From assembly GCF_020514235.1 (NCBI RefSeq), contig NZ_VTLB01000003.1, forward strand, positions 124,001 to 188,000: a stretch of 64,000 bases of DNA, in the 5' to 3' direction. Under the pieces are notes generated by a model, which saw only the letters and a program-made list of their open reading frames with translations, was not told the origin of the DNA and ran no database searches. The position numbers and the translations under genes are program-made. The stretch comes from Synechococcus sp. MU1617. GTDB lineage: Bacteria > Cyanobacteriota > Cyanobacteriia > PCC-6307 > Cyanobiaceae. Shown here piece by piece: positions 62 through 18,016 of this stretch; position 1 is the stretch's first letter, and every line of letters begins with the position of its first letter.

Positions 62-642
62 CAGCAGGGGCTCCCTGAAAGGCCATAAAGATTGTGCTGG
101 AGCAAAAGCGGCCACACCGCTTCAGGGATCTGAGCTTCATTGGGTTGCTGCCGCAGTTGCGAACTGGCGGTGGCAGGAACCTCCAGATCCAGCAGTTCCA
201 CCCGTCCACCCAGATCGCGGAGGGCCTGCAGCGTGGCTTCTTCGAGGGGCCAACCCTTGCGCGGGGCGATCGCTAAACGGCACTGCGGTAGCCAGCAATC
301 GCTCTGTTTCCAGCGGAGAATCTGGCTGGCGAGATCGCTACCGACCACAAACACCAGGTCCCTCTCAGGCCAATACTTGGCGGCCCGCTGCAAGGTGATC
401 AAGGTGTAAGGGCTGCTCAGATGCTGGGCCAGCTCCAGCCGTTCATCCTGCAGTTGCTGCACCAGCTGGCCGAGCAGCATCGCCCGCAACGCCAGGGGAG
501 CATCGTGCTGTTTCAGGGGGTTGTCGCTGGCCCAGGTCGCCACCTGGCCGTAGCGGTTCAGAAGCCCCTCCAGCAGCACCTGATGGCCGCGGGTGGGTGG
601 ATCGGCGCTGGTGCCCAGCAAGGCGATGGCAGCAGCGATCAT
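61..642 (-). CDS. nadD: Nicotinate-nucleotide adenylyltransferase
   Basis: This 193-residue protein has the nucleotidyltransferase opening IALLGTSADPPTRGH, a form of the (H/T)xGH nucleotide-binding motif. A VFVVGSD stretch in the middle fits the second nucleotide-binding region. It adenylates nicotinate mononucleotide, just before NadE. The reading frame stays open upstream to about position 813, but the family motif starts right after the ATG at 642, one base after the stop of the GTPase gene, so that start is chosen. It forms an operon with the GTPase upstream and nadE downstream. Confidence 0.85.
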   Translation of the reverse strand: MIAAAIALLGTSADPPTRGHQVLLEGLLNRYGQVATWASDNPLKQHDAPLALRAMLLGQLVQQLQDERLELAQHLSSPYTLITLQRAAKYWPERDLVFVVGSDLASQILRWKQSDCWLPQCRLAIAPRKGWPLEEATLQALRDLGGRVELLDLEVPATASSQLRQQPNEAQIPEAVWPLLLQHNLYGLSGSPC

Positions 643-643
643 C

Positions 644-1939
644 TCAGGGCAGCAGCGGTTGTAGATCCTGCTCCAGGGCTTTGGGCCAGCGCAACAGCCA
701 GTGGTGCACCACGGGATCCCGTTCGGCCAGGCGGCGCAGCAGGGCCCCCGGTTGACCGCCGCGTCGTCGTAGCAATTGCTGGGCGACCAGACGCCCCGTT
801 CGCCGGCTGGCATGCACCGCCAGGGCGGCCTGGGCCAGGGCCACTGGGGCTGCCGGGGCCAAGCTGCCGCCGCCGCTCACCGGCACCAGAAGCAGCAGTG
901 CTTGCTTCAGGGCCGCCAGCCCCAGCTGAACGCCGCCCAGCAGGGCGTTGTGGCTGGAGAGTCGGGTGAGCAGCAGTCGTGCCGCTGCTGGTGTCATCGG
1001 CAGGTTGTAAAGACGGCTGAGCTGCAGCACCAGGGCGGTGTCGCAGGCCATGCCTCCTGCCATATCCAACGCCATCACAGGGTTGACGGCCACGCCAGTG
1101 GCCTTAGCGGCTGCATAACGACCGATCAGGCTTTGGGCCGTGTGGCGGTGCTGCTGCAGCCGCAGTTCTTGGCAGGCCCTCTGGAAGCGGTCGGCCTGGC
1201 GCAGCGACTGAATCGCCAGCAGCAGGGTGCCTTCGTTCTCCAGCTGCTGGCAGAGCTGCTTCCGCAGATCCTGCACCTCCGGCGTCGTGATCGTGCTGCG
1301 CACCCGCCCATCAGCTTGGATCTGGGGCCTGCGGGGCGCTGCCGCTGCCGCGGTGATCGGCAGATCCACTGGCAGCCGGGCGCCGATGCTGCGCAGCAGC
1401 GCGGCGCGTTCCTGCTTCGGCCAGCGGTCGCTGCGGTTCAGCACCAGCTGCAGGGGCTTGCCGCTCTCTAGCAGCGTGCTTAAGGCCTCCAGGTCAGCTC
1501 GGGTCAGATCGCTGTCCACCACCAGCAGCACCAGGTCGGCACCCATGGCCACGCGAGAGGCCAAGCGAGCCCGCCCCCCGGCATCGATTTCATCAATGCC
1601 GGGGGTGTCCACCAATTCCACCCTGGTCAGCCCGGCAATCCCCACGGGCCATTCCACCGCCTGTTGACGCCGGGTGCTGCCGTGGGCGACATCCGTCTCC
1701 AGCAGCGGCCGGCGGATCAAGGCATTGATCAGGCTGGATTTGCCGACCCCAACCCGACCAAATAGGGCAATCCGCAGGCGCCGTTGCTGCAGCCGTTGCA
1801 GCTGGCGATCCAACAGCTGCAATTCACCCCCCAGCAGTCCCCGCTCCCGGGCGCTCAGCTGCAGCTGGCTGCGCCAGCGCTCCAGCAGCAGCTGGCAGCG
1901 TTCAACGGTGTGGGGCGGGGTGGGTTGCATCCCGTTCAT
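644..1939 (-). CDS. Era-like GTPase with C-terminal DUF697-like membrane region
   Basis: The 431-residue protein has the G1 loop GRVGVGKSS at about residues 61-69, the G3 motif DTPG at about 111-114 and a G4-like NRSD at about 168-171. The N-terminal 55 residues are Leu/Gln/Arg-rich and probably helical. The last 180 residues are Ala/Leu-rich and hydrophobic, as in DUF697-type cyanobacterial GTPases that associate with membranes. The ATG at 1939 overlaps the upstream CNNM gene as ATGA; an earlier in-frame ATG at 1957 exists but lies deeper inside that gene. The cellular target is unknown. Confidence 0.8.
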   Translation of the reverse strand: MNGMQPTPPHTVERCQLLLERWRSQLQLSARERGLLGGELQLLDRQLQRLQQRRLRIALFGRVGVGKSSLINALIRRPLLETDVAHGSTRRQQAVEWPVGIAGLTRVELVDTPGIDEIDAGGRARLASRVAMGADLVLLVVDSDLTRADLEALSTLLESGKPLQLVLNRSDRWPKQERAALLRSIGARLPVDLPITAAAAAPRRPQIQADGRVRSTITTPEVQDLRKQLCQQLENEGTLLLAIQSLRQADRFQRACQELRLQQHRHTAQSLIGRYAAAKATGVAVNPVMALDMAGGMACDTALVLQLSRLYNLPMTPAAARLLLTRLSSHNALLGGVQLGLAALKQALLLLVPVSGGGSLAPAAPVALAQAALAVHASRRTGRLVAQQLLRRRGGQPGALLRRLAERDPVVHHWLLRWPKALEQDLQPLLP

Positions 1940-2934
1940 GCTGCCGGCTTGCGCCACCAGCCCGCCAGCACTGCCAGCACGGATTCGGCCCCGATCACGC
2001 CGACGAAGCCACCGAATTCATCCACCACCACGCGCACGCCGCTGCTGTCGCGCCGGAAGCCTGTCAACAGCCGATCGGCTCGGATCATTTCCGGCACATA
2101 TTCCACCGGTTCGCAGAGGTCAACGGGCGTGAGCAGCCCACGGTTCTCCAACAAGGCGGTGAGCACCCGTTCGCGGCTGGCCACGCCAAGCACCTTGTCC
2201 ACCTGATCGCCTAGCACCACCCACCATGGGTCGTTGGTGCTCATCAGCTTGGCCCGCTGGGCTTCGATGCTCAGGCTGCCGTCCAGGGTGGGTGCCGCCA
2301 CCCGCGGCGTCATCAGGTCGCGGGCGGTGAGATCGTTCAGTTGAAACACCTTGCCGATCATCGCGGCTTCATCAGCTTCGATTTCTCCTTTCTGGGAGCC
2401 CAGGCGGGCCAGCAGACGGATCTCCTCTTCATTGGTGCTGAGTTCCGCTTCGGCAGTGATGGCTGGCAGCATCCGCTCAAGCAGCAGCACCATCGGCCGC
2501 AGCGCTAGGCCGAGCCAATGCAGTAAGGGGGCGCTGGCCAGGGCCACCGGCAAGGCCAGGCGGCTGCCGAGGGCTTTGGGCAGGATTTCCCCCAGCAGGA
2601 TCACCAGGATGGTGAGGCCTACAGAGAACACAGGTAGAGCGGCACCGCTGATGTTGCGTTGCTCGAACACCCAGGCGGCATAACCACCCAACATCAGGCT
2701 GCCGAAAATGTTGAAACCGTTGTTCGCGATCACCAGCGCCGACAAGGTTCGTCCCAGCCGTTGACGCAACTGCGCCAGCCGCCGGGCCCCTGCCACGGGG
2801 CGCTCTCGGGCCGCCAGCTCGTGCACCCGAATCGGACTCACCGTGAGTAGGGCGGCTTCCACGCCGGAACAGAGGGCCGAGCCCAGGAGCACCACCAACA
2901 CCAGCAGCAACAGCACCAGGAGATCGGAGCTCAT
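1936..2934 (-). CDS. CNNM/CBS-domain membrane protein (hemolysin-C/CorC-like)
   Basis: This 332-residue protein begins with a strongly hydrophobic Leu/Val helix and carries further membrane segments to about residue 160, forming a DUF21/CNNM transmembrane domain. A pair of CBS domains follows at about 190-315, recognisable by DLMTPRV and by VVDEFGGFVGVI. Family members are proposed to transport Mg2+ or other divalent ions or to sense nucleotides. The usual C-terminal CorC_HlyC domain is missing, so this is a short version. It is the first gene of the nad operon strand run. Confidence 0.8.
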   Translation of the reverse strand: MSSDLLVLLLLVLVVLLGSALCSGVEAALLTVSPIRVHELAARERPVAGARRLAQLRQRLGRTLSALVIANNGFNIFGSLMLGGYAAWVFEQRNISGAALPVFSVGLTILVILLGEILPKALGSRLALPVALASAPLLHWLGLALRPMVLLLERMLPAITAEAELSTNEEEIRLLARLGSQKGEIEADEAAMIGKVFQLNDLTARDLMTPRVAAPTLDGSLSIEAQRAKLMSTNDPWWVVLGDQVDKVLGVASRERVLTALLENRGLLTPVDLCEPVEYVPEMIRADRLLTGFRRDSSGVRVVVDEFGGFVGVIGAESVLAVLAGWWRKPAA

Positions 2935-3021
2935 TGCCGTCTGAAACTCCTTTCATCGTAGAGGCCCTGGCCAGTTCGGCCTTGCCAACTGCCATCCTGT
3001 TCTCCTGAACGCACTGTTGCT

Positions 3022-4347
3022 GTGAACGGCTTCGACTCCGGCATCCACGCGCGTCGTCGCGCCCTGTTCATGGAGCAACTCGGCGCCGCCGCCGCGGTGA
3101 TCCCGGCCGCGGCACTGGCGACCCATCACGCCGACTGCGAGTGGCCCTTCCGGCAGGACAGCGATTTCTTCTACCTCACTGGTTTTGATGAACCGGACGC
3201 GGTGGCCCTGCTGGTGCCGCATCGACCGGAGGGCGAGCGCTTTGTGCTGTTCGTGCAGCCCAAGGACCCGGCAGCTGAGGTGTGGACTGGCTTCCGCTGG
3301 GGTACAGAGGGAGCGGTGGAGCGCTACGGCGCTGATGTGGCCCATCCGCTGGATCGGCTGGGCGAAAAACTGCCGGAGTACCTCGCCGGTGCTGAAGCCA
3401 TCGCCTTCCGGGTGGGTCGCCACACATCGGTGGAGTCGATGGTGCTCTCGGCCTGGGGGCGGCAACTTGATACCTATGCCCGAACGGGTACTGCGGCTCT
3501 GGGACTGGTGGCGCCAACGCCAATCCTGCATCGCCTGCGCCTGCGCAAGGAGCCCCATGAGCTGGAGCGTTTGCGTGAGGCCTGTCGCATCTCCTCAGAG
3601 GCCCATGAGCTGGCCCGCTTGATCACCCGCCCGGGCATGAACGAGGCTGAGGTGCAGGCGGCGATGGAAGCTCACTTCCGGAGCAATGGGGCCCGTGGAC
3701 CGGCCTACGGCTCCATCGTTGCTGGTGGTGATAACGCCTGCGTGCTGCATTACACCGCCAATACGGCCCAGCTTCAGGACGGTGACCTGCTGCTGATCGA
3801 TGCCGGTTGTTCCCTGGAGGACTACTACAACGGCGACATCACCCGCACCTTCCCGGTGAATGGTCGTTTCACGGCGGAGCAGCGGGATCTCTACAGCCTG
3901 GTGTTGGCGTCCCAGGAGGCTGCGGTTGCCGTTGTGGCTCCCGGCGGTACCGCTGAGGCGGTGCACGACACAGCCCTGCGAATTCTGGTTGAGGGCCTGG
4001 TGGACCTAGGTCTGCTGATCGGAGATGTGGACGGAATCATCGAGCGAGGCGACTATCGACACCTGTACATGCACCGAACCGGCCATTGGCTGGGTCTTGA
4101 TGTGCATGACGTGGGGGCATATCGGCTCGGTGAGCAACCTGCGCCGCTGGAGCGAGGCATGGTGCTCACCGTTGAGCCCGGCATATACGTCAGCGATCGC
4201 CTCAGCGTGCCGGAAGGACAGCCTGAGATCGACGATCGCTGGAAAGGCATCGGCATCCGCATCGAAGACGACGTTGCCGTGACCGAGACCGGCCATGAGG
4301 TGCTCTCCGCGGGCGCCCTCAAGAGCGTTGCTGCGATGGAGCGCTGA
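3022..4347 (+). CDS. pepP: Xaa-Pro aminopeptidase (M24B)
   Basis: This is a 441-residue M24 metallopeptidase that removes N-terminal residues preceding proline. The N-terminal domain carries the AMP_N-like DFFYLTGFDEPDAVALL. The pita-bread catalytic domain shows the dinuclear metal ligands in order: Asp in LIDAGCSLEDYYNGDITR (two Asp, about residues 260 and 272), His in HRTGHWLGLDVHD (about 355), Glu in EPGIY (about 385) and Glu in GIRIEDD (about 415). Translation begins at a GTG. It is divergent from the CNNM gene and is a single gene. Length and motif order match the family. Confidence 0.92.
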   Translation: MNGFDSGIHARRRALFMEQLGAAAAVIPAAALATHHADCEWPFRQDSDFFYLTGFDEPDAVALLVPHRPEGERFVLFVQPKDPAAEVWTGFRWGTEGAVERYGADVAHPLDRLGEKLPEYLAGAEAIAFRVGRHTSVESMVLSAWGRQLDTYARTGTAALGLVAPTPILHRLRLRKEPHELERLREACRISSEAHELARLITRPGMNEAEVQAAMEAHFRSNGARGPAYGSIVAGGDNACVLHYTANTAQLQDGDLLLIDAGCSLEDYYNGDITRTFPVNGRFTAEQRDLYSLVLASQEAAVAVVAPGGTAEAVHDTALRILVEGLVDLGLLIGDVDGIIERGDYRHLYMHRTGHWLGLDVHDVGAYRLGEQPAPLERGMVLTVEPGIYVSDRLSVPEGQPEIDDRWKGIGIRIEDDVAVTETGHEVLSAGALKSVAAMER

Positions 4348-4386
4348 TCGCGTCCATAACGGGGGCTTCTCCAAGGACAACTGCCC

Positions 4387-5727
<1,341 letters not shown>

Positions 5728-5756
5728 TTCCGCTCCGCTTTTTAGCTTGTCCACAG

Positions 5757-5782
5757 AAACCTGCCTTCGGGCAGGTTTTTTT
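5757..5782 (+). terminator. Rho-independent terminator after PSRP-3
   Basis: The sequence CCTGCC-TTCG-GGCAGG forms a six-pair stem with a stable UUCG-type tetraloop and is followed by seven T residues. It lies 30 bases after the PSRP-3 stop codon. Confidence 0.85.
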
Positions 5783-5828
5783 GTGCCTGCCACCTAGCGC
5801 TCTGATTAAAGACCCAAAAACCACCATT

Positions 5829-5856
5829 AAAAAAGCCAGGGGAGGAAACCCCTGGC
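5829..5856 (-). terminator. Rho-independent terminator of the atpD-atpC operon
   Basis: On the minus strand GCCAGGGG pairs with CCCCTGGC around a small loop and is followed by six T residues (the A run at 5829-5834 on the plus strand). It lies 35 bases after the atpC stop. Confidence 0.85.
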
Positions 5857-5890
5857 GCGTTGAATGTCATCCGTTGAACAGTTGGATGAA

Positions 5891-6301
5891 TCAGTCGGCT
5901 GTTTTGCTGGCCTGAAGACGAGCGCGAGCTTCATTCAGCTGTTGCTGGGCTTTGAGCTTTTCCGGAGAAGCCGGTTGGCCTTCCATGCCAGCCACCACGG
6001 TGGCGGCTTTCTGGAAAGCGGTCTCGGCGGCAGCGCCATCGATGGCGCTGCCCAGTTCGGCCTTGTTCACCAGAACGGTGACTTCATCAGCATCCACTTC
6101 GGCGAAACCACCCATCAGGGCGATGGAGTTCCAAGCACCGTTGGCACGCACCCGAAGCACGCCAATGTCGATGGCGGTGAGCAGGGAGATGTGGCCAGGC
6201 AGGATTCCGAGTTGACCGGTGGTACTGGGCAGGATCACCTCGTCGGCGCTGCCATCAAAGACGTTCTGGTCTGTTGCCAGCACGCGGAGGGTGAGGGACA
6301 T
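5891..6301 (-). CDS. atpC: ATP synthase F1 epsilon subunit
   Basis: This 136-residue protein has the N-terminal beta-sandwich with the family signature STTGQLGILPGH and a C-terminal helical hairpin rich in Ala, Gln and Lys. It links the rotor to the F1 head and inhibits ATP hydrolysis. It is the second gene after atpD, with a hairpin in between, as in other cyanobacteria where atpBE (beta-epsilon) is split from the main atp operon. Confidence 0.95.
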   Translation of the reverse strand: MSLTLRVLATDQNVFDGSADEVILPSTTGQLGILPGHISLLTAIDIGVLRVRANGAWNSIALMGGFAEVDADEVTVLVNKAELGSAIDGAAAETAFQKAATVVAGMEGQPASPEKLKAQQQLNEARARLQASKTAD

Positions 6302-6343
6302 GAACCTTGGTTCGAAAAGAGAACGGACTGTCGAGAACGTGAT

Positions 6344-6366
6344 CGGGGGTGTGATTCACACCCCCG
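6344..6366 (-). promoter_or_regulatory. Perfect hairpin between atpD and atpC
   Basis: An 11-base inverted repeat (CGGGGGTGTGA and its complement) sits in the 71-base gap between the two genes. It has no T run on the minus strand, so it does not look like a full terminator. It may act in partial termination or mRNA processing; this is inference. Confidence 0.45.
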
Positions 6367-6372
6367 CAGTGA

Positions 6373-7896
<1,524 letters not shown>

Positions 7897-7979
7897 TTAC
7901 CACTGCTGTGGTTGCTCCCTATCGGTTCGGTCACCCGCACAGCTGGAGGTCTGGCCTGAGGGCTGGTCGGTTGAATACG

Positions 7980-8006
7980 TTGGCACTCATCGGCATCGAG
8001 TGCCAA
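7980..8006 (+). promoter_or_regulatory. CIRCE operator (HrcA binding site) upstream of groES
   Basis: The sequence TTGGCACTC, nine bases, then GAGTGCCAA is a perfect inverted repeat and differs from the classical CIRCE half-site TTAGCACTC by one base per arm. It lies about 50 bases before the groES ATG, where HrcA would repress groESL until heat stress. The hrcA gene is not in this window. Confidence 0.9.
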
Positions 8007-8058
8007 CTCGCGTCGATGCTTGGCGCATTGCGCCCTGTCCCTGCTCCTGCAAATACCC

Positions 8059-8370
8059 ATGGCTGCTGTTTCTCTCAGCGTCTCGACCGTCAAACCCCTC
8101 GGCGATCGCGTGTTCGTCAAGGTCTCTGAATCCGAAGAGAAGACCGCCGGCGGCATCCTTCTGCCTGACACCGCCAAAGAAAAGCCCCAGGTGGGTGAAG
8201 TGGTTCAGGTGGGCCCCGGCAAGTGCAACGACGACGGAAGCCGTCAGGCTCCCGAAGTTGGTGTGGGCGACAAGGTCCTCTACAGCAAGTACGCCGGCAC
8301 CGACATCAAGCTCGGCAGCGATGAATACGTACTGCTGTCCGAGAAGGACATCCTGGCTGTCGTCAACTGA
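8059..8370 (+). CDS. groES: Co-chaperonin GroES
   Basis: This 103-residue protein contains the Cpn10 core [13 protein letters not shown] and the mobile-loop region [13 protein letters not shown]. It forms the lid on GroEL. The ATG at 8059 is chosen because the homologous sequence starts there; an upstream in-frame ATG at 8020 would extend into the leader near CIRCE. It is followed after 78 bases by groEL. Confidence 0.95.
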
Positions 8371-8448
8371 GATCAGCCCCGCTGAAATTGCGGCTTGAGT
8401 CTCAACTCAGCCTTCCTTACCCATCCTCTTCATTAGGAAACGCCTTCC

Positions 8449-10080
8449 ATGGCAAAGCGCATCATCTACAACGAGAACGCCCGTCGCGCTCTCGAAAAAG
8501 GCATTGACATCCTCTGTGAAGCCGTCGCCGTGACTCTGGGTCCCAAGGGTCGCAACGTGGTGTTGGAGAAGAAGTTCGGTGCACCTCAGATCATCAATGA
8601 CGGTGTCACCATCGCCAAGGAGATCGAGCTCGAAGACCACATCGAGAACACCGGTGTTGCTCTGATCCGTCAGGCCGCCTCCAAAACCAACGACGCCGCC
8701 GGTGACGGCACCACCACCGCCACCGTTTTGGCCCATGCCATGGTCAAGGCGGGTCTGCGCAATGTGGCTGCCGGTGCCAATGCCATCACCCTGAAGAAGG
8801 GAATCGACAAGGCTTCCGATTTCCTGGTCAGCAAGATCAAGGAAATGGCCAAGCCCATCGCTGACAGCAACGCCATCGCCCAGGTCGGCACCATCTCTGC
8901 CGGCAACGACGAAGAAGTCGGCAAGATGATTGCCGATGCCATGGACAAAGTTGGCAAGGAAGGTGTGATTTCCCTCGAAGAGGGCAAGTCCATGGAGACC
9001 GAGCTCGAGGTCACCGAGGGCATGCGTTTCGACAAGGGCTACATCTCCCCTTATTTCGCGACTGACACCGAGCGGATGGAAGCCGTCCTCGACGAGCCCT
9101 ACATCCTGCTCACCGACAAGAAGATCGGTCTCGTGCAGGATCTCGTGCCTGTGCTGGAGCAGATCGCCCGCACCGGCAAGCCTCTGCTGATCATTGCCGA
9201 GGACATCGAGAAGGAAGCCCTCGCCACCCTGGTGGTGAACCGTCTGCGTGGCGTGCTCAACGTGGCCGCTGTGAAGGCTCCTGGTTTTGGTGATCGCCGC
9301 AAGGCCATGTTGGAAGACATGGCTGTCCTGACCAACGGTCAGCTGATCACCGAGGACGCCGGTCTCAAGCTGGAGAACGCCAAGCTGGAGATGCTGGGCA
9401 CCGCCCGCCGCATCACCATCAACAAGGACACCACCACCATCGTTGCCGAGGGCAACGAGGCGGCTGTCGGCGCCCGCTGCGAACAGATCAAGAAGCAGAT
9501 GGACGAGACCGACTCCACCTACGACAAGGAGAAGCTGCAGGAGCGTCTGGCTAAACTGGCCGGTGGCGTCGCTGTGGTGAAAGTGGGTGCAGCCACCGAA
9601 ACCGAGATGAAGGACAAGAAACTCCGTCTCGAAGATGCCATCAACGCCACCAAGGCAGCTGTTGAGGAAGGCATCGTTCCTGGTGGTGGCACCACCCTGG
9701 CTCACCTGGCTCCGGCTCTGGAGCAGTGGGCAGCCTCCAGCCTCTCCGGCGAGGAGCTGATCGGCGCCAACATCGTGGCTGCCGCTCTCACCGCTCCGCT
9801 GATGCGCATCGCTGAAAATGCAGGTGCCAACGGTGCTGTCGTGGCCGAGAACGTCAAGGCTCGCGCTGGTGCCGAAGGCTTCAACGCTGCTTCCGGCGAG
9901 TATGTCGACATGCTGGCTGCCGGCATCGTCGACCCCGCCAAGGTGACCCGCTCTGGTCTGCAAAATGCCGCGTCCATCGCTGGCATGGTGCTGACCACCG
10001 AGTGCATCGTGGCTGATCTTCCCGAGAAGAAGGAAGCAGCTCCTGCCGGTGGCATGGGCGGCGGCGACTTCGACTACTGA
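8449..10080 (+). CDS. groEL: Chaperonin GroEL (groESL-linked copy)
   Basis: This 543-residue 60-kDa chaperonin has the ATP-binding sequences TLGPKGRNV and [14 protein letters not shown] and the late [12 protein letters not shown]. The C-terminus ends in [10 protein letters not shown], with only a short Gly-Met tail. It folds proteins with GroES. Cyanobacteria usually have a second unlinked groEL; this one is the CIRCE-controlled operon copy. A terminator follows. Confidence 0.97.
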
Positions 10081-10159: not shown

Positions 10160-10282
10160 ATGCCTGCATCTGTCTTGTGAAATCTAGATTTTGCAAGACA
10201 TGCTGCTCGAGGTGGGCGGTGTCAGTTGCAGGCCATGAAGGTTGTGAGGTGCATCTCTGCACCGGCTAGCGTCTTGCTACGT

Positions 10283-10654
10283 ATGGTTGTGTCGGGACAA
10301 ATGCCCCAGCGCCCCGGTGCCTTTGCCGCCCAGTTTGCTCCTGAGACGCTGCAGCGTTTCAAGGACCTCTGCCGACAGCAAGACAAGGCCTACTCCAAGG
10401 TGTTGGAGCGTCTTGCACTGTTGTACGTCGAAACCAACGGTGCAGTTCTGGCCGATCGTTCTGCTCCAGTTGGTGCAGCCCCAGGCGTTCAGAAGCGTCA
10501 GGTGCAGGTGGAAACTTTGCAGAACAAACTGCTTGAAGACTTGCTGAAGAGGGTCGAGATTTTGGAAAAGAAGGACGTCAAAATGTTGTACGAGCTTGAT
10601 CGGGTCTATAAAGAGTTGGCTTTTCTCAAATCAGGGTTACAAAGTCCTGGCTGA
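10283..10654 (+). CDS. Hypothetical protein with C-terminal coiled coil
   Basis: I do not recognise a named family. The 123-residue protein has a compact N-terminal part (FAPETLQRFKDLCRQQDK, then KVLERLALLYVETNG), a Ala/Pro/Val linker and a C-terminal heptad-like stretch LQNKLLEDLLKRVEILEKK that should form a coiled coil. Possible starts are ATG 10283, ATG 10301 or an upstream one at 10226. Codon use resembles the GC-rich host, and the AT-rich island begins right after its stop. Confidence 0.6.
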   Translation: MVVSGQMPQRPGAFAAQFAPETLQRFKDLCRQQDKAYSKVLERLALLYVETNGAVLADRSAPVGAAPGVQKRQVQVETLQNKLLEDLLKRVEILEKKDVKMLYELDRVYKELAFLKSGLQSPG

Positions 10655-10910
10655 CTTAATTTCTATCGCTTGATATCAAGTTCAATGGGGTTTGCCTGAA
10701 TTGAGAAACGATTTCGTTATTCCTTTTGATAGGCTACGCTTTTCAGCAAAGGGGATAGAAGGTTTGTGTTAAAAGTAAGATGAAAAAGTGGTGTGAATTC
10801 TGGAGGCAAGAATGACTATAAGAAGTAAGTCCTTATTCCAATAGTGCTTGGTATTTGCTGCAGTTCTTTTGATACTGATCTATGAATTGTCTGAAGTTGG
10901 CTGTGTAGAT

Positions 10911-11939
10911 TTAACTCTTTTGTGTTGCCTGTGTTGCGAGTAGGGCGGCGCATTTCGCGATTGAATTAATAACATCGCGAGGATTTGAAATTGGATCAGA
11001 GAACTTTAGCGATTCTTCTGCAAAAGAGGGACCTAGTAGTTTGTTCATTTCTTCCTTGAGTTGCTTGTATTGCTCTTTTATTAATTGGAATTCAACTTCA
11101 GTAAGTAAAAATCGGTCTCCCTGAAGCCTATCAAGGCCTTGCCGCAAAAGCTTGAAATTATTTTTACTGCACCGTTTTCGACTTTGCTCTGCATGAAACT
11201 CTTTATTGATGAGATTCATGGCACGCACTTGTGGGTTATTAAGAGACTCATTGCTACGAAAGCTGGAGTCATGGCGTATTGATTCCCAACTCACAGGAAT
11301 GCCGAGTTGCTCAAGACAGAAAGCCGCAGGCCCATCGCGGTGAGCCAGGGCTGTTGAAAAAGGCTGGAAATTAATATTTTCCCTAAATACTTTTTGAAGA
11401 GTTTCGATTTCTCCAGAGCGACTTGGCAATAGCCTCGTGATGGCCCGCTTGCGATGGGGCTGATCCAGCCCAACCAAGGGATTGAATTTCCCGGATTTGA
11501 TGTTCTCCTGCATTGCAGAGCATGCATAGGAGTAAGGAGGCCTCACTAAGGCTAAAACCTTCACTTTGAAGCCAAAGGTTTTGAGGTCTTCAAGGAGACG
11601 TAGGTAATTCTCCTCTGGCCATGCACAAAGTGCTTCACCACTGTAGAGAAGATCATACTCTTGCTGTAAAGCCTTGATCTGAATCTCTTGGTTGATTTGT
11701 CTTAATTCGCTTCGGCCTGTTTGCTTGGATTTTTTCCCCGTACTTTTCGCTATGCCCCGCTTGTAAATCACCGACAATGGACTTGAATGATTACAGCGAT
11801 TTTCTTTTTCAGGTGAATAGACAAATTGTGGGTAAAAAACACCTGCTTTCTTGAGTTCATCACGATTGCCCCCACATATTTGTTGGAATGTTGTCGTTGC
11901 GGTTTTATGAAAACCAATATGTAAGTAGCAGGTTTTCAT
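10911..11939 (-). CDS. Sulfotransferase-like protein (P-loop, PAPS-binding type)
   Basis: This 342-residue protein opens with CYLHIGFHKTATTTFQQ, the 5'-phosphosulfate-binding loop pattern of prokaryotic sulfotransferases (hxGxxKTxTTxxQ). A second element LALVRPPYSYACSAMQENI at about 130-150 resembles the 3'-phosphate loop. Such enzymes transfer sulfate from PAPS to glycans or other acceptors. The gene is AT-rich and full of codons unlike the flanking housekeeping genes, so recent transfer is likely. The acceptor cannot be deduced. Confidence 0.7.
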   Translation of the reverse strand: MKTCYLHIGFHKTATTTFQQICGGNRDELKKAGVFYPQFVYSPEKENRCNHSSPLSVIYKRGIAKSTGKKSKQTGRSELRQINQEIQIKALQQEYDLLYSGEALCAWPEENYLRLLEDLKTFGFKVKVLALVRPPYSYACSAMQENIKSGKFNPLVGLDQPHRKRAITRLLPSRSGEIETLQKVFRENINFQPFSTALAHRDGPAAFCLEQLGIPVSWESIRHDSSFRSNESLNNPQVRAMNLINKEFHAEQSRKRCSKNNFKLLRQGLDRLQGDRFLLTEVEFQLIKEQYKQLKEEMNKLLGPSFAEESLKFSDPISNPRDVINSIAKCAALLATQATQKS

Positions 11940-12144
11940 TTGCTTCTAAGTGAATTTAATATAATTCTATCAAAGCGACGATCTATGCATTGTCTAGTTT
12001 TATTCGTTGTGTAATTATCCATTTTTAGCAATTTTCTCTCGGCTGGCCTTGGGTGGTGCTTTGAAAAGATTGTAGTTTCGGCAGCTATGCCTCTGCTTTT
12101 TTTCTGATTCTTGCTTAGAGCAGATGGGCATCGTGGCGCTCACC

Positions 12145-13545
12145 CTATTCATTCAACTTCAACATTTCTATAATCATGTTGATTACAATTTCAATACTGA
12201 TGCTGTAACTGATTAATCCCGTTCCTGATCGCTCGGCTCTCTTGCCTTTGGCAAATAAATTACCGACATCCTTGACAAGTGATTTGTCGACTAATTGCAC
12301 GCTTGTGTTGTTAATGCCCATGGGGAAAACACAATGCTTCTCATTTGAATGAAGGATGCCTGGTTTTTTGCAGAACCGATGCGGAACGAGCTGGCCAGCT
12401 CCAGCATTGGCAATGAAAAAATCAGCAGATTCGCATCGTTGAATTTTTTTTCGATAGGTTTGGCCTACCAGGCAGACAATAGAAGCATTTGAAAAAGATG
12501 ACAGTTTCTTTTGAATTGAATCGACTACCTCAAGATCTTGGTTGACGGGCGTCTCCTTGCTTCCTTGTATCGGAACATATGCATTGTCTTCATATTGCGT
12601 AAATCCATCAATCAAAAATACAAACGAATCGAACCAAGGGCTCAGTCGCTCAACAAGAGTTGGAAGAAAATCTTCTTGTTCGACCCAGATTCTTTTCTGG
12701 CCTGAAATTCCAAACCAAAGTGTAAGAGTTCTCTTTTTGCCCGATATTTTCTTGATTTGTTTGATAAATTGTTCCCACCGATAATTTATTATGCCACCGC
12801 GCAAGCTTTTCAGGCTGTCTTGGTAGACAACGTTCTCCATTATTTCGGTGTATTCGTCAAGCTTCATCCCCATTTGATTGGATCCTATGACCAAGGGGAA
12901 TATTGAGAATTCGGGTTTATTTTTCCTGTTGCCAGTAGCATTTCTGTTCAAGTATTTAGGGCTGAAAAAAGAATTTTTACTGACGACTGGTTTTTTCGTC
13001 TCTAAATGCACCATCCATTTGAGTTGGTCGTAGAAGTGATGGTACGGTCTTGTTTGATCAAGCAAGTAGCCAGAAAAGATTGCCTTTTTGTTTTCATGCT
13101 GTTTTGAATTCTTCCTGGTTTCTTTTTTGAGAACTCTCTTGACTGAGTTGAGAATTGTCTCGTCGCTGATGGATGAATGATGTTTTCCAGAGTATGTCGT
13201 CGAAAAAAGAGCATCAATGAATGATGTGCATTGGCATAAGATCCATTGGTTCTTATTTTGTGAATCACTAAAAAAGATAAAGTTGCACATTCCTTGTCGT
13301 ACGCTTTTGACTGGGAATGTATCTACGGCTTCCATGAAGGGATGAGGTAAGCAGGGTGACCCCTTGTCCTTGTCGATTGCTTGGATGATCTCGAGGATTG
13401 GTTGAATTTCTTTATTCTCAATGGAATGAATAATCTTTTTCCATAGTGGGTTGCAGACTTCTTGGGCCAGTGTGTTGGGTAATTTTTTGGTTGGGATAAT
13501 GAATTGATGCTTAGCTGATTGTTTCCTGCCAATATTTTTCTTCAT
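12145..13545 (-). CDS. Unknown protein, possibly glycosyltransferase-like
   Basis: The 466-residue protein is Lys/Asn/Ile-rich and clearly AT-rich. I cannot place it firmly. Two features are reminiscent of GT61/DUF563-type glycosyltransferases: TRPYHHFYDQLKW at about 170-180 and ADFFIANAGAGQLVPHRF at about 390, the latter resembling the GAG-containing loop near the C-terminus of that family. An AAGG sequence precedes ATG 13545. It lies between two sulfotransferase-like genes on the same strand, which fits a role in glycan building, but this is inference. Confidence 0.55.
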   Translation of the reverse strand: MKKNIGRKQSAKHQFIIPTKKLPNTLAQEVCNPLWKKIIHSIENKEIQPILEIIQAIDKDKGSPCLPHPFMEAVDTFPVKSVRQGMCNFIFFSDSQNKNQWILCQCTSFIDALFSTTYSGKHHSSISDETILNSVKRVLKKETRKNSKQHENKKAIFSGYLLDQTRPYHHFYDQLKWMVHLETKKPVVSKNSFFSPKYLNRNATGNRKNKPEFSIFPLVIGSNQMGMKLDEYTEIMENVVYQDSLKSLRGGIINYRWEQFIKQIKKISGKKRTLTLWFGISGQKRIWVEQEDFLPTLVERLSPWFDSFVFLIDGFTQYEDNAYVPIQGSKETPVNQDLEVVDSIQKKLSSFSNASIVCLVGQTYRKKIQRCESADFFIANAGAGQLVPHRFCKKPGILHSNEKHCVFPMGINNTSVQLVDKSLVKDVGNLFAKGKRAERSGTGLISYSISIEIVINMIIEMLKLNE

Positions 13546-13727
13546 TGCCTTGTTCTACTGCTTTCAGTGATTATACATCCTTATTGCTCATGTTATACCT
13601 GTCTTCGATCTATTTTATGGGCTATGGCGCTTTGGCATATGTGGTTACTTGTTCGGATGAATTAATCTCGTTAACTCTGAAAATATAAAATGACGGATTT
13701 CCATTTTAAGTTTTGCTGCCTCGAGGA

Positions 13728-14888
13728 TTACGGTTTTGCGAGTTCTTTGCGTGCTCGCTCCAGCAGCTGTGCAAGTTTTTGGCCTTGTGGTCGATTCTCT
13801 TTGGCGACTTCCAAGAGTTCAACTTCCGTGGTTTTGGATACTTGCCCCGACTGGCTTAAAGCGATGATTGCATCGACAGTGCCGTTGGAGAGTTTTCGCT
13901 TTGACTCATTGGTTAATGTTTGGAGCAGTGTATCTCCCATAAGACTTACGGAAATGGCCTCTTCTTCGCGTATTTTCTGGGCTTGTTCTGGTGAATCCAC
14001 CTGAGCTATTTCTTGGCTGAGATTTGCAAGTGATGTCAACTGTTCCTTTGAGTCTAGGAATGCATTAATGGTCTGTAGGTAAGGATCGTTTGTCTCATAG
14101 ACTTTTTGGAGCTGCTGCTTTGCGATTTTGCATTGCTGTGCTTCAAGTTTTGGTTGATTTTTAATTAATGCATCTGAAATTCTTGCGCTAATCCAGGGAA
14201 ATCTGCTGAAGTAAAGAGCATTAATCGTGATCAGAATCTCAAGCTCTTTGCGGCTCAGGCTCCTATTGATGACGGCTCCGGCCATCTGGCTTGTGGGATA
14301 GAGGTCTTCTGCACCGATGAGTTTGAAAATCAATTGGGAAATATCGCGTTTGTGCTCTGAGTAATTGATGATCGTATTTGTGATGTTTGACTGAGCTATT
14401 AATTCAATGACTTCAGCTGCTTTTGCATGATGTGATGAAACAAAATGCCTGGCTCTCAGAAATTGTTCCAGTGGCATTGCGTCACCATGCCGCTTAACGC
14501 GTTGTTGGTATTCCGAAGACAGCATCTCTTCGATCTCTCGGACCGCCAAGATTATGTGTAGGTCGATATGAGTTTCCCAAGTGCTCTTGTTTTGAATCAA
14601 TTCTGGAACTAGCCAGAATAGTGATTCTGAGCTCAAGATTATTTTTGAATTTTTGTAGTTGCTTTTTGCTATTTCGAGCAATTGATTGGTCAAGCTTGCT
14701 TCGGACGTGGGCTCCCAATTGCCGGATGTGATTTCAAGTCTAGATGCTCGGTCGCGAAGAGATTGCTGGATGGGGTAATTGATACCTCGCTTGGCTAAAT
14801 CTTCCGAAGCGATTGCTAGTGCGGACTGGATTGCGGAGGTTCCAGTTTTTCCGTGGCCGATGTGCAGGAAAAGTTTTGTTTTTTTCAC
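13728..14888 (-). CDS. Sulfotransferase-like protein (P-loop, PAPS-binding type)
   Basis: The 386-residue product opens with KLFLHIGHGKTGTSAIQSAL, a clean PAPS 5'-loop. The element IILAVREIEEMLSSEYQQRV at about 120 fits the 3'-phosphate-binding region (R..E...S.Y). The C-terminal third is a charged, helical, Gln/Lys/Glu-rich region of unknown role. The start is GTG 14888, preceded by AAAGGAGT. It is the most convincing sulfotransferase of the island and may share a transcript with the two genes downstream of it. Confidence 0.75.
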   Translation of the reverse strand: MKKTKLFLHIGHGKTGTSAIQSALAIASEDLAKRGINYPIQQSLRDRASRLEITSGNWEPTSEASLTNQLLEIAKSNYKNSKIILSSESLFWLVPELIQNKSTWETHIDLHIILAVREIEEMLSSEYQQRVKRHGDAMPLEQFLRARHFVSSHHAKAAEVIELIAQSNITNTIINYSEHKRDISQLIFKLIGAEDLYPTSQMAGAVINRSLSRKELEILITINALYFSRFPWISARISDALIKNQPKLEAQQCKIAKQQLQKVYETNDPYLQTINAFLDSKEQLTSLANLSQEIAQVDSPEQAQKIREEEAISVSLMGDTLLQTLTNESKRKLSNGTVDAIIALSQSGQVSKTTEVELLEVAKENRPQGQKLAQLLERARKELAKP

Positions 14889-15025
14889 TGCACTCCTTTT
14901 TATCCCTCTTACTTTAGCATCGTCTCTGATGTGGTTGTTTACAGGGTGTCGTGAAACTTTTGGGCATTGCGTTTAGCCACTATTTTGCTCTAATCTTTTC
15001 TGAAATAGGGGTTTCGAGGTCTTAG

Positions 15026-16138
15026 ATGGAGCGAAGGCTGGTCATTCATGTTGGGGCTCAGAAGTGTGCGTCCTCTTCGCTGCAAGCCTCTCTTCGTTTG
15101 GTGGCTCAGGCGTCGAAGGGTGCTCTGGGATTTTGCTTTTTGAATCCTGCTCAACTTCGCAATGCTGACCAAGCTCTACAGCGGAATCGTGACACCGCTT
15201 TTGACTATATTGATCGCGTTCTATCTGCCGAGTCAGGTTCGCAGGTTGTTGTGAGCCATGAAATGCTTGGCAATCGCCCAGCATTGGTGTGTTCGATTGC
15301 AGAGCGTGCTTTGGATCAGCATGATTTTGATCATGTTGTGATCTCTGGATACTCAAGACTGCAATCTAGTTATCATATCTCTGCTTATTCTCAGTGGTTT
15401 TTCCGCGACAGGAAGAAACTTCACGAAGACCTAAAGGTATTGGCTGGTTATGATCTGGATTGGAAAAAATTTACGGCGTTAGAGCGAAGTCTTCTTGTAC
15501 TGTCTCTGGTTGGCCAGGATCGTAATTGGTTTGGTAACTATCAACGTTTTTGTGGCGGCGTTAAAAGCCTTGGTGGTTCAGTCAGTGTCGTGAGTTCACA
15601 TATCCCAACACGATCTCTCCCTTATTCCTTGCTTGCACACTTCCTGTCTTCGACGGGGCTGGCTTTGGAGCTTGATGACCTCAGCTCATTCGACGTGCGA
15701 AAGAATCTTTCCTTCAATCAAGCATTAATTCATGCCATGTCTGCCCATCTCAGTGCTCTTCGACCACGCCAGCAGTCGTTTTTCCCAGGACCCCATGAAG
15801 GAAATCGCTGGCTCTTCCGTGTGTGCAGTCGACTCTCGGCTGCAGACCAATTGATGTCTGAATTTGATGCATTGTTTTCCCCTCATCTCCAACAGTCGCT
15901 TGTTGGGCACCTCGATAGCAGAGCGTCCTCAAGTAACCAGCAGTATTGCGAATTGATGTCTGTCGACTTCAACTATTTCAAGCCATCTGATCAGGCCTCG
16001 CTGCTATCGGAAAACGAATTGATTGCTTTGGCTGGTGATATCGCGCAGAGTCGGAATTCGGAAGATATTGAGCAATTCAATGGCCAGGTTGAAAATGCCT
16101 GCATGCAGAGCATGCGTGCTGAAATTGTGAGTTCCTAA
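15026..16138 (+). CDS. Sulfotransferase-like protein (divergent)
   Basis: This 370-residue protein starts RLVIHVGAQKCASSSLQASL, again a P-loop of the sulfotransferase type in which KT is replaced by KC. Later hallmarks are weak; VVISGYSRLQSSYHISAYSQ at about 105-125 may be the 3'-phosphate loop. Its base composition is between that of the island and of the core genome. It is transcribed divergently from the other island genes and converges on secG with ten bases between stops. Function is inferred from the N-terminal motif and the neighbours. Confidence 0.6.
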   Translation: MERRLVIHVGAQKCASSSLQASLRLVAQASKGALGFCFLNPAQLRNADQALQRNRDTAFDYIDRVLSAESGSQVVVSHEMLGNRPALVCSIAERALDQHDFDHVVISGYSRLQSSYHISAYSQWFFRDRKKLHEDLKVLAGYDLDWKKFTALERSLLVLSLVGQDRNWFGNYQRFCGGVKSLGGSVSVVSSHIPTRSLPYSLLAHFLSSTGLALELDDLSSFDVRKNLSFNQALIHAMSAHLSALRPRQQSFFPGPHEGNRWLFRVCSRLSAADQLMSEFDALFSPHLQQSLVGHLDSRASSSNQQYCELMSVDFNYFKPSDQASLLSENELIALAGDIAQSRNSEDIEQFNGQVENACMQSMRAEIVSS

Positions 16139-16148
16139 GCGGGTTGAT

Positions 16149-16379
16149 TCAGTTCAGCCAACCTGCACTCAGGATCACGGCCAAAGACAAAAACAATGCC
16201 AGGCATGTCCATGTCAACCGGTTCAACGTTGCCTCCGCACTGCTGGCGCTGCTGAACATGGAGCTGCCGCTCGCCGCCAACCCACCCATGCCATCACCTT
16301 TGGGGCTATGCAGCAGCACCAAGACGATCAAAATAAGGCCGGTACCGATCCAGCTCCAGGACAAAATTGAGGTCAACAT
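16149..16379 (-). CDS. secG: Protein translocase subunit SecG
   Basis: The 76-residue protein has two hydrophobic segments separated by the conserved LLHSPKGDGMGG loop, the standard SecG layout. It assists SecYE in protein export. Its ATG shares bases with the gpmI stop, so the two genes are coupled. Confidence 0.88.
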   Translation of the reverse strand: MLTSILSWSWIGTGLILIVLVLLHSPKGDGMGGLAASGSSMFSSASSAEATLNRLTWTCLALFLSLAVILSAGWLN

Positions 16380-18016
16380 CAGACGGAAAGAGGAAGGCGA
16401 GCGGTCTTGGGGGTGGGATCCATGTGGGACATGGGTGCAATCAGGCTTTGGCCGGTCATGGCCGCCGGTTGAGGTAGATCGAGAATCTGTAGCAACGTCG
16501 GAGCGATATCGGCAAGGCCTCCGTTATCGCGGAGTGTGATCGCGTTGCCATGGCCAGGAAGTTTGCGCCGTTCTCCCTCGATCAGGATCGCGGGTACAGG
16601 ATTGGTGGTGTGGGCGGTCCAGGCTTGACCATCCGGCCCTTGCATCAATTCAGCATTGCCGTGATCAGCCGTGATCAGCATGGTTCCGCCCTGACGTCCC
16701 ACCGCATCCAACAACCGGCCAATGCAGCCGTCCACGGTTTGGATGGCCTCCTTAGCGGCATCCATCACACCGGTGTGCCCCACCATGTCGGGGTTGGCGT
16801 AGTTGATCACAACCAGCGAATAGTCCGCCTTCTCAATGGCTGCAATACAGCTGTCGGTGAGTTGCTCGGCCGACATCGCCGGTGAAAGGTCGTAGGTGGC
16901 GACCCTCGGCGATGGCACCAAGTGACGCTCTTCTCCTGACAGTGGCTGTTCGATGCCACCGTTCATGAAATATGTGACGTGGGGATACTTCTCCGTTTCG
17001 GCAGTGCGGTATTGCTTCAGCCCGGCGTCGGCCACCACCTGCCCCAACAGTTGGTCGAGCGGCTCAGGAGGGAAGACGACTTGAACGGGCAGGTCTTGTT
17101 CCACCTGAGTGAAGGTCACCACGTCTAAATCCGGAGTGTGGCTGCGCTCGAAGCCCTCGAAGTTGCGCAGGCATAGCGCCTGCACGATCTGGCGGGCGCG
17201 ATCGGGTCGGAAGTTGAACACCAGAACACTGTCACCGTCCTTGATGACGCTGTTCTGGAGCCGCACCGGTTCGAGGAATTCATCGGTGATCTCCTCGGCA
17301 TAACTGTTTGCCAGCACCTGGTCTGCAGTGCGGCTATCAACAGCGATGTTTGGATCGGTGTAGAGGTTGTAAGCCTTTTCGATTCGCTCCCAGCGCTTGT
17401 CCCGGTCCATGGCCCAATACCGGCCACAGAGGCTGGCGAGCTGGCCCACGCCGCTTCGGCTCAAGGCTGCTTCTACCTGGCTGATGTATCCCGGTGCGCT
17501 CTGGGTGGGTGTGTCGCGACCATCGGTGATGGCATGCACGGCGAGATGGGAGATGCCGCTGTCGGCAGCCCACTGGATCAGACCACAGAGATGGTCCACA
17601 TGGCTGTGGACGCCGCCATCGGAACAGAGGCCAAGCAGGTGCAGTGTCCCGCCCCGCTTTTGAGTGCGTTCAGCCAGTTCCGTCAGCGCTTGGGTGTCGC
17701 CCAGTTGATTGCTGCGCACCGTGTCGCTGATCCGCACCAACTCCTGGCGAATGATGCGGCCTGCACCGATGGTCAGGTGGCCTACTTCAGAGTTGCCCAT
17801 CTGTTGATCGGGGAGTCCCACATGGGAGCCACTGGCCTCAATCAAGGTGTGTGGATAGGCATGCCACAGGGCATCCATCACAGGAGTGCCGCTTTGCTGG
17901 ATCGCGTTGTGCTCGCTTGCGCTCCTGTAACCCCAGCCATCAAGAATGGCCAGAACGACCGGTGCAACTGTCCCGGAGCGTCCTGAACCGTTGGTAGTGC
18001 TTTTCCCCACGTTCAC
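16379..18016 (-). CDS. gpmI: 2,3-bisphosphoglycerate-independent phosphoglycerate mutase
   Basis: This 545-residue Mn-dependent enzyme interconverts 3- and 2-phosphoglycerate. It shows [12 protein letters not shown] with the metal-binding Asp, the catalytic Ser in [27 protein letters not shown] and the C-terminal metal site ITADHGNAE. The start is a GTG at 18016; the catalytic core begins about 20 residues later. It is divergent from pyrR and precedes secG. Confidence 0.95.

Follow-up and report, generated by a model that had tools for sequence, protein, structure and literature searches.

Divergent sulfotransferase-like genes between groEL and secG in Synechococcus: a probable lineage-swappable cassette

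Genes of the AT-rich block between groEL and secG

What occupies the chromosome of Synechococcus sp. MU1617 between the conserved genes groEL and secG? In the 64,000-nucleotide stretch of contig NZ_VTLB01000003.1 analyzed here (the window), which belongs to a 2.32 Mb genome in 10 contigs, positions 10655–16148 form a block with a guanine-plus-cytosine (GC) content of 43.0%, compared with 62.4% elsewhere in the window. Among 476 overlapping segments of the same length that lie clear of the block (100-base steps), the lowest GC content is 60.0%. The third-position GC content is 41–46% in the four genes of the block, A to D, 76% in groEL, and 69% in the nearby gene gpmI. An original prediction, made before any database search, had described an AT-rich island with four open reading frames (ORFs) and three P-loops at this site, and all of these are found where it placed them. 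We consider it fairly probable that the block is a resident cassette of divergent sulfotransferases dependent on 3′-phosphoadenosine 5′-phosphosulfate (PAPS), a cassette that lineages can swap at a single address between groEL and secG.

Three of the four genes are sulfotransferase-like. Gene A (10911–11939, minus strand; 342 residues) has the P-loop HIGFHKTATTT and is without a Pfam match, gene C (13728–14888, minus strand; 386 residues) has HIGHGKTGTS, and gene D (15026–16138, plus strand; 370 residues), which yields a good structure model, has HVGAQKCASSS. Gene B (12145–13545, minus strand; 466 residues) is unclassified, with a weak C-terminal resemblance to the glycosyltransferase family GT61. 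Genes C and D start divergently, and by the ORF coordinates the 137-base gap between their starts (14889–15025) is the presumed promoter region; scanning for consensus promoters gave no site there, and the scan for promoters together with terminators stayed at chance level.

Membership of A, C and D in the sulfotransferase superfamily

The sulfotransferase type of A, C and D, which had been guessed from the P-loops alone, is borne out by a chain of profile comparisons, by the fold of D, and by conserved residues. The chain runs through gene C. A widened C profile was assembled from 35 sequences (14 from the genus and 21 others, from other bacteria and viral contigs), and a Sulfotransfer_1 profile from 25 rows, of which 23 are Cyanobiaceae proteins retrieved with Sulfotransfer_1 and two come from the groEL-gpmI address. 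The widened C profile matches the Sulfotransfer_1 members at 96.5% probability over 220 columns, with a score of 79, while 30 column shuffles reach at most 16. Gene D matches the widened C profile at 92.4% over 194 columns; the widening was needed because the plain comparison of C with D gives 31%, over the P-loop, and plain A against D gives 1.5%. Gene A matches the widened C profile at 99.2% over 269 columns, a value that is partly circular because members L123–L125 of the widened set had been found with A; the value free of circularity is that of A against C without widening, 95.4% over 147 columns. Within this chain, the column-shuffle control covers the C-to-Sulfotransfer_1 and A-to-Sulfotransfer_1 comparisons. 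A sub-threshold Sulfotransfer_1 match was present in 4 of 10 scanned relatives of A or C. Judged by their sequences, the three proteins are members of a single superfamily of PAPS sulfotransferases, in which C ties to Sulfotransfer_1 and both A and D tie to C. The earlier claim that outside the P-loop each protein is dissimilar to the other two does not hold, given the 147 columns shared by A and C and the 194 shared by D and the widened C set. These three divergent families escape standard annotation.

The fold of D agrees with this assignment. Its structure model (predicted local distance difference test, pLDDT, 88.9; predicted template modeling score, pTM, 0.86) was compared by VIA-align with 997 Foldseek candidates, and ranks 1–16 are all sulfotransferases. 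The best matches are the heparan sulfate 3-O-sulfotransferases (Z 12.3, 220 residues, 3.6 Å); these and one bacterial sulfotransferase score Z 11.6–12.3, the remaining sulfotransferases, Teg12, StaL and TPST included, score Z 8.8–9.2, and the first unrelated P-loop protein follows at Z 8.8 over 127 residues. A sulfotransferase fold is thus predicted for D, the sole modeled one of the three, under VIA-align, although Foldseek does not rank it first. The structure and profile searches that the original prediction had proposed for all four proteins were productive for the fold of D and for the profile links of A, C and D, whereas Foldseek was uninformative for D and the AlphaFold model of B (pLDDT 38) was too poor for a fold search.

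Which residues do the three proteins share? The P-loop Lys is invariant (A K12, C K14, D K13), as are a Glu shortly after a later strand (A E102, C E88, D E79) and an Arg-x7-Ser pair (A R133/S141, C R117/S125, D R111/S119). All four residues are kept in every sequence compared, 14 for A/E, 10 for D, and 14 for C (with one X at the C Arg); among the 35 members of the widened C set, Lys and Glu are present in all, Arg in 34 (one X), and Ser in 34. The R-x7-S pair aligns with the R-x7-S of the Sulfotransfer_1 members, and we take it to be the 3′-phosphate motif of sulfotransferases, with the spacing that is seen in the Sulfotransfer_1 profile. The likeness to heparan sulfate 3-O-sulfotransferases and bacterial PAPS sulfotransferases comprises the fold of D, the P-loop Lys, and R-x7-S, while A, C and D differ from the Sulfotransfer_1 superfamily in lying below the Pfam cut-off. 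The conserved Glu is a candidate catalytic base. In the 3-O-sulfotransferase 3-OST-3, Glu184 sits 22 residues after Lys162 (PMC8341778); the candidate Glu of D lies 66 residues after the P-loop Lys and is therefore probably not the same residue.

One address with alternative gene sets

The block is bounded on the left by groEL (8449–10080, plus strand), assigned from its ORF and sequence and with an orthologue in 30 of 34 genus genomes (E≤1e-200). On the right lie secG (16149–16379, minus strand), also assigned from ORF and sequence, and gpmI (16379–18016, minus strand), which encodes a phosphoglycerate mutase, is found in 31 of the 34 genomes, and served as the right-hand marker for finding the same interval elsewhere. 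Both markers lie on one contig in 25 genomes, to which all interval counts below refer; G000 denotes the genome of the window. Just left of the cassette, a 142-residue gene (10226–10654, plus strand) has a weak ribbon-helix-helix resemblance (RHH_9, E 0.027, 14.8 bits against a cut-off of 23.4). It is resident in 15 of the intervals, all four nearly empty ones among them, and might be a regulator of the cassette.

The intervals range from 1.08 to 14.4 kb. The comparison across genomes that the original prediction had called for showed at least one sulfotransferase-like gene in 21 of the 25 and four nearly empty intervals (G153, G131, G172 and G173), with gene sets that differ. Six intervals combine a further family, E, with C and D and up to two A genes (G151, G177, G061, G160, G159, and G161, where E is broken), and about two of these additionally hold a Sulfotransfer_2-like gene, H. 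Another six combine B and C (G004, G156, G152, G089, G169 and G162), with D in two and a decayed D in one, namely G162. The window, with A, B, C and D, is the sole interval in which A and B occur together, G174 holds C alone, and G112 has a distant D. Other sulfotransferase-like genes occupy six intervals: F in G154, G155 and G147, a Sulfotransfer_4 gene in G163, a sub-threshold Sulfotransfer_3 in G164, and an open H-type frame in G168. Gene C is the most widely kept family (14 of 25), with alleles that diverge down to 40% identity. The order and orientation of A, B, C, D and E are constant wherever they are present, while F occurs on either strand, and the GC content of intact occupied intervals is 26–46%, with the exception of G147 (63%). 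Thus, what had been called a strain-specific system is so in that interval content varies between strains, but the same families recur in the same order and orientation in many species.

Is the cassette confined to Synechococcus? The P-loop pattern was found in no ORF of at least 100 residues in 40 picked intervals from other genera of the family, which carry an ammonium transporter, a methionine sulfoxide reductase, and other genes (named by eye). As far as sampled, the sulfotransferase cassette appears to be typical of the genus. In several of the other genera (L129, L130, L135 and L136) a low-GC ORF of 711–751 residues fills the same interval. Separately, a contig labeled as an uncultured proteobacterium metagenome-assembled genome (L097) encodes a C protein 85% identical to that of the window, and is probably a mis-binned Synechococcus contig.

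The gene sets have been both lost and exchanged. With the D gene alone as query, remnants of D are found in the nearly empty intervals of G153 (64 nt, E 3e-7) and G172 (34 nt, E 2e-4); in G173 the scar is seen solely as an in-frame reading, and in G131 the search gave no clear result. The chance level of this search is marked by a 30-nt match on the other strand in G164 (E 0.002), and a 30-nt piece of D also matches in G089 (E 5e-5). Since the 3′ end of D is kept in frame in G153 and G172, and by reading in G173, we regard these sites as deletions; losses account for at least two of the four nearly empty sites and probably for a third. One of them, G172, is the closest relative of the window by GpmI (98%). 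Exchange is suggested by identities that do not run in parallel: G177 and G000 share 95% in GpmI and 53% in C, and G089 and G000 share 77% in GpmI and 72% in C. In the flank tree G177 lies inside the G000/G152/G169 group and G089 with G151 and G161, whereas in the C tree G177 groups with G061 and G089 with G000 and its group. When either tree is held to the opposite grouping, the approximately unbiased (AU) test rejects it, with p-AU 0.0027 for the flanks and 1.3e-10 for gene C; the two clades tested were picked after the identities had been seen. The trees comprise 13 of the 14 genomes with C, G159 having been dropped for an incomplete groEL, and the C tree leaves six of its ten inner branches unsettled. 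Because the flank and C trees conflict, we conclude that functional cassettes have moved between lineages, as is common for genes of the cell-surface coat. Homologous recombination at the flanks, raised in the original prediction as a possible mechanism of exchange, would be the simplest mechanism and fits the conflicting trees. The ratio of nonsynonymous to synonymous rates (dN/dS) is 0.06–0.25 for 11 gene pairs drawn from A/E, B, C and D, values that are approximate since several dS exceed 1, and by this measure selection on the cassette genes is purifying.

Likely role and competing explanations

What might the cassette do? The genome of the window encodes an adenosine 5′-phosphosulfate (APS) kinase and can therefore supply PAPS. 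As further cargo, the address houses GT2/GT92, GT61, methyltransferase, and GSCFA genes. On contig 2 of G000, a paralogue of C adjoins a sulfatase gene, with a recognized Sulfotransfer_1 gene about 5 kb away; this region (L089, 4932–13984) also holds a nucleotidyltransferase-like gene. In Rhodobacterales-type loci, glycosyltransferase or UDP-sugar dehydrogenase genes lie near the relative in three of six cases and none was recognized in the other three, the proteins for the Pfam scan having been chosen by eye. Likewise, in G140 a four-gene array of P-loop sulfotransferase-like genes adjoins a sugar epimerase and a glycosyltransferase; the array (L095, 4776–10821) has a GC content of 42–46% amid 60–70%. 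Our best guess, drawn from these neighboring genes, is that surface-glycan sulfation is the likeliest role. We propose that A, C and D would each take PAPS as donor and place its sulfuryl group on a glycan hydroxyl at the cell surface, with gene B as a possible glycan-modifying partner, perhaps a glycosyltransferase. Exchange of gene sets via homologous recombination in groEL, secG or gpmI would then alter the sulfation marks that a strain displays. By extension, and tentatively, the interval might act as a sulfation-type switch, in which lineages swap acceptor-specific sulfotransferase sets, and thereby alter the sulfate pattern of a surface glycan, much as other bacteria change serotype, with phages and grazers as the selective pressure, a possibility we hold to be doubtful.

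Several observations weigh against our proposal. All four genes lie below every cut-off of Pfam, NCBIfam and PHROGs, A, C and D having no match to Pfam Sulfotransfer_1, 2, 3 or 4 even at E≤10, and profile searches of PDB sequences with the four family alignments (A to D) returned chance-level rows only. Compared directly with the Sulfotransfer_1 profile, D gives a weak 44% confined to 21 P-loop columns, and A gives a very weak, non-significant 3.7% with a score of 27, against 23 in the best of 30 shuffles. Foldseek ranked ATPases and signal recognition particle (SRP) GTPases first for D (template modeling score, TM, 0.17), with no sulfotransferase among the 50 rows listed. The block in the window contains no recognized polysaccharide gene, and Wzx/Wzy with several glycosyltransferases were not found, A to D alone lying between the flanks. 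Finally, the resemblance of B to glycosyltransferases is weak. Its C-terminal part matches a GT61 set of 15 at 7.6–11.7% (hhalign), with a score of 30–32 where 40 column shuffles stay at or below 17.8, and two smaller GT61 sets at 0.1–1.1%. The B family is present in 7 of the 34 genus genomes, in four of which a longer relative (~585 residues) sits elsewhere; neither B nor the two of these relatives that were scanned has a Pfam match.

How do these and the preceding observations bear on other explanations? The substrates of the sulfotransferases might be small molecules, lipids, or secreted peptides instead of a surface polysaccharide, an explanation that is unlikely but carries real weight. 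The glycopeptide-antibiotic and tyrosylprotein sulfotransferases Teg12, StaL and TPST are among the fold neighbors of D, the block has no operon for glycan biosynthesis next to it in the window, and several relatives elsewhere are solitary genes; however, the best fold matches of D are glycan sulfotransferases, the address cargo includes glycosyltransferases and GSCFA, and the C paralogue in the same genome stands beside a sulfatase gene. We consider it very improbable that the three proteins are kinases or other NTPases of the P-loop type. The Foldseek ranking would favor them, and adenylate kinases reach Z 8.6–8.7 for D in VIA-align, but sulfotransferases score clearly higher (Z 12.3, and 220 residues against 127–164), and the conserved R-x7-S aligns with that of the Sulfotransfer_1 members.

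Two further explanations concern the origin of the block. A recently acquired mobile island whose own integration machinery has since been lost would account for the low GC content relative to the chromosome, which conserved families retain among species of one genus, and for the serine recombinase and tyrosine-recombinase-like gene in 2 of the 25 intervals (G162 and G163). The extra recombinase DNA lies between groEL and the 142-residue gene in G162 (L075, ~400–7500) and on both sides of that gene in G163 (L076, ~370–9600). The original prediction of no integrase or transposase thus applies to the block of the window, where none was matched by the five proteins (A to D and the 142-residue protein) in Pfam, NCBIfam or PHROGs, and does not extend to those two intervals. 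We find such an island improbable: against it stand the fixed gene order and orientation across species, the strong divergence of the C alleles, the D deletion scars in nearly empty sites, and the degraded D of G162. In favor of an anti-phage defense island, gene content varies while the address is fixed, and two related intervals carry recombinases, as in defense hot spots, but the five proteins matched no PADLOC model at E≤0.1, and we give this explanation almost no credence. Because the same families recur in many species with their order and orientation unchanged, and because some nearly empty sites are deletions, we conclude that the block is long-resident with loss and exchange and did not arrive recently in a single strain.

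Serotype-type surface-antigen loci with conserved flanks likewise hold different gene sets at one address that are exchanged between lineages. They are built of glycosyltransferases and polymerases, whereas the groEL-secG locus is built of sulfotransferases. The nearest characterized parallel is synechan (xss) of Synechocystis 6803, whose large operon lies on a plasmid and includes eight glycosyltransferases, Wzx/Wzy, and regulators (PMC8205485). The likeness is that more than one sulfotransferase of distinct subfamilies occurs in a cyanobacterium, tied there to a sulfated exopolysaccharide; the difference is that here three to six genes stand alone at a chromosomal address. The Pfam search of that study (PF00685, PF03567 and PF13469) would miss A, C and D. 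The genomic islands of marine Synechococcus are alike in low-homology genes, envelope functions, and lateral transfer, but the groEL-secG locus differs in its stable gene order and few families; the main text on those islands does not mention sulfotransferase, groEL or secG (PMC2441476), and our literature search found no paper on a groEL-secG sulfotransferase locus.

Sulfated polysaccharides are widespread in cyanobacteria and few of their genes are known. In marine picocyanobacteria, three sulfotransferase families share one address. The present analysis adds a relationship among the three enzymes and a genus-wide locus with alternative gene sets, and it shows that the nearly empty sites are at least in part losses and that cassettes have moved between lineages. 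Finally, close relatives such as G000 and G172 differ only in the cassette, and hence provide natural pairs for direct tests of surface sulfation, with which its effect on phage adsorption and grazing becomes directly addressable.

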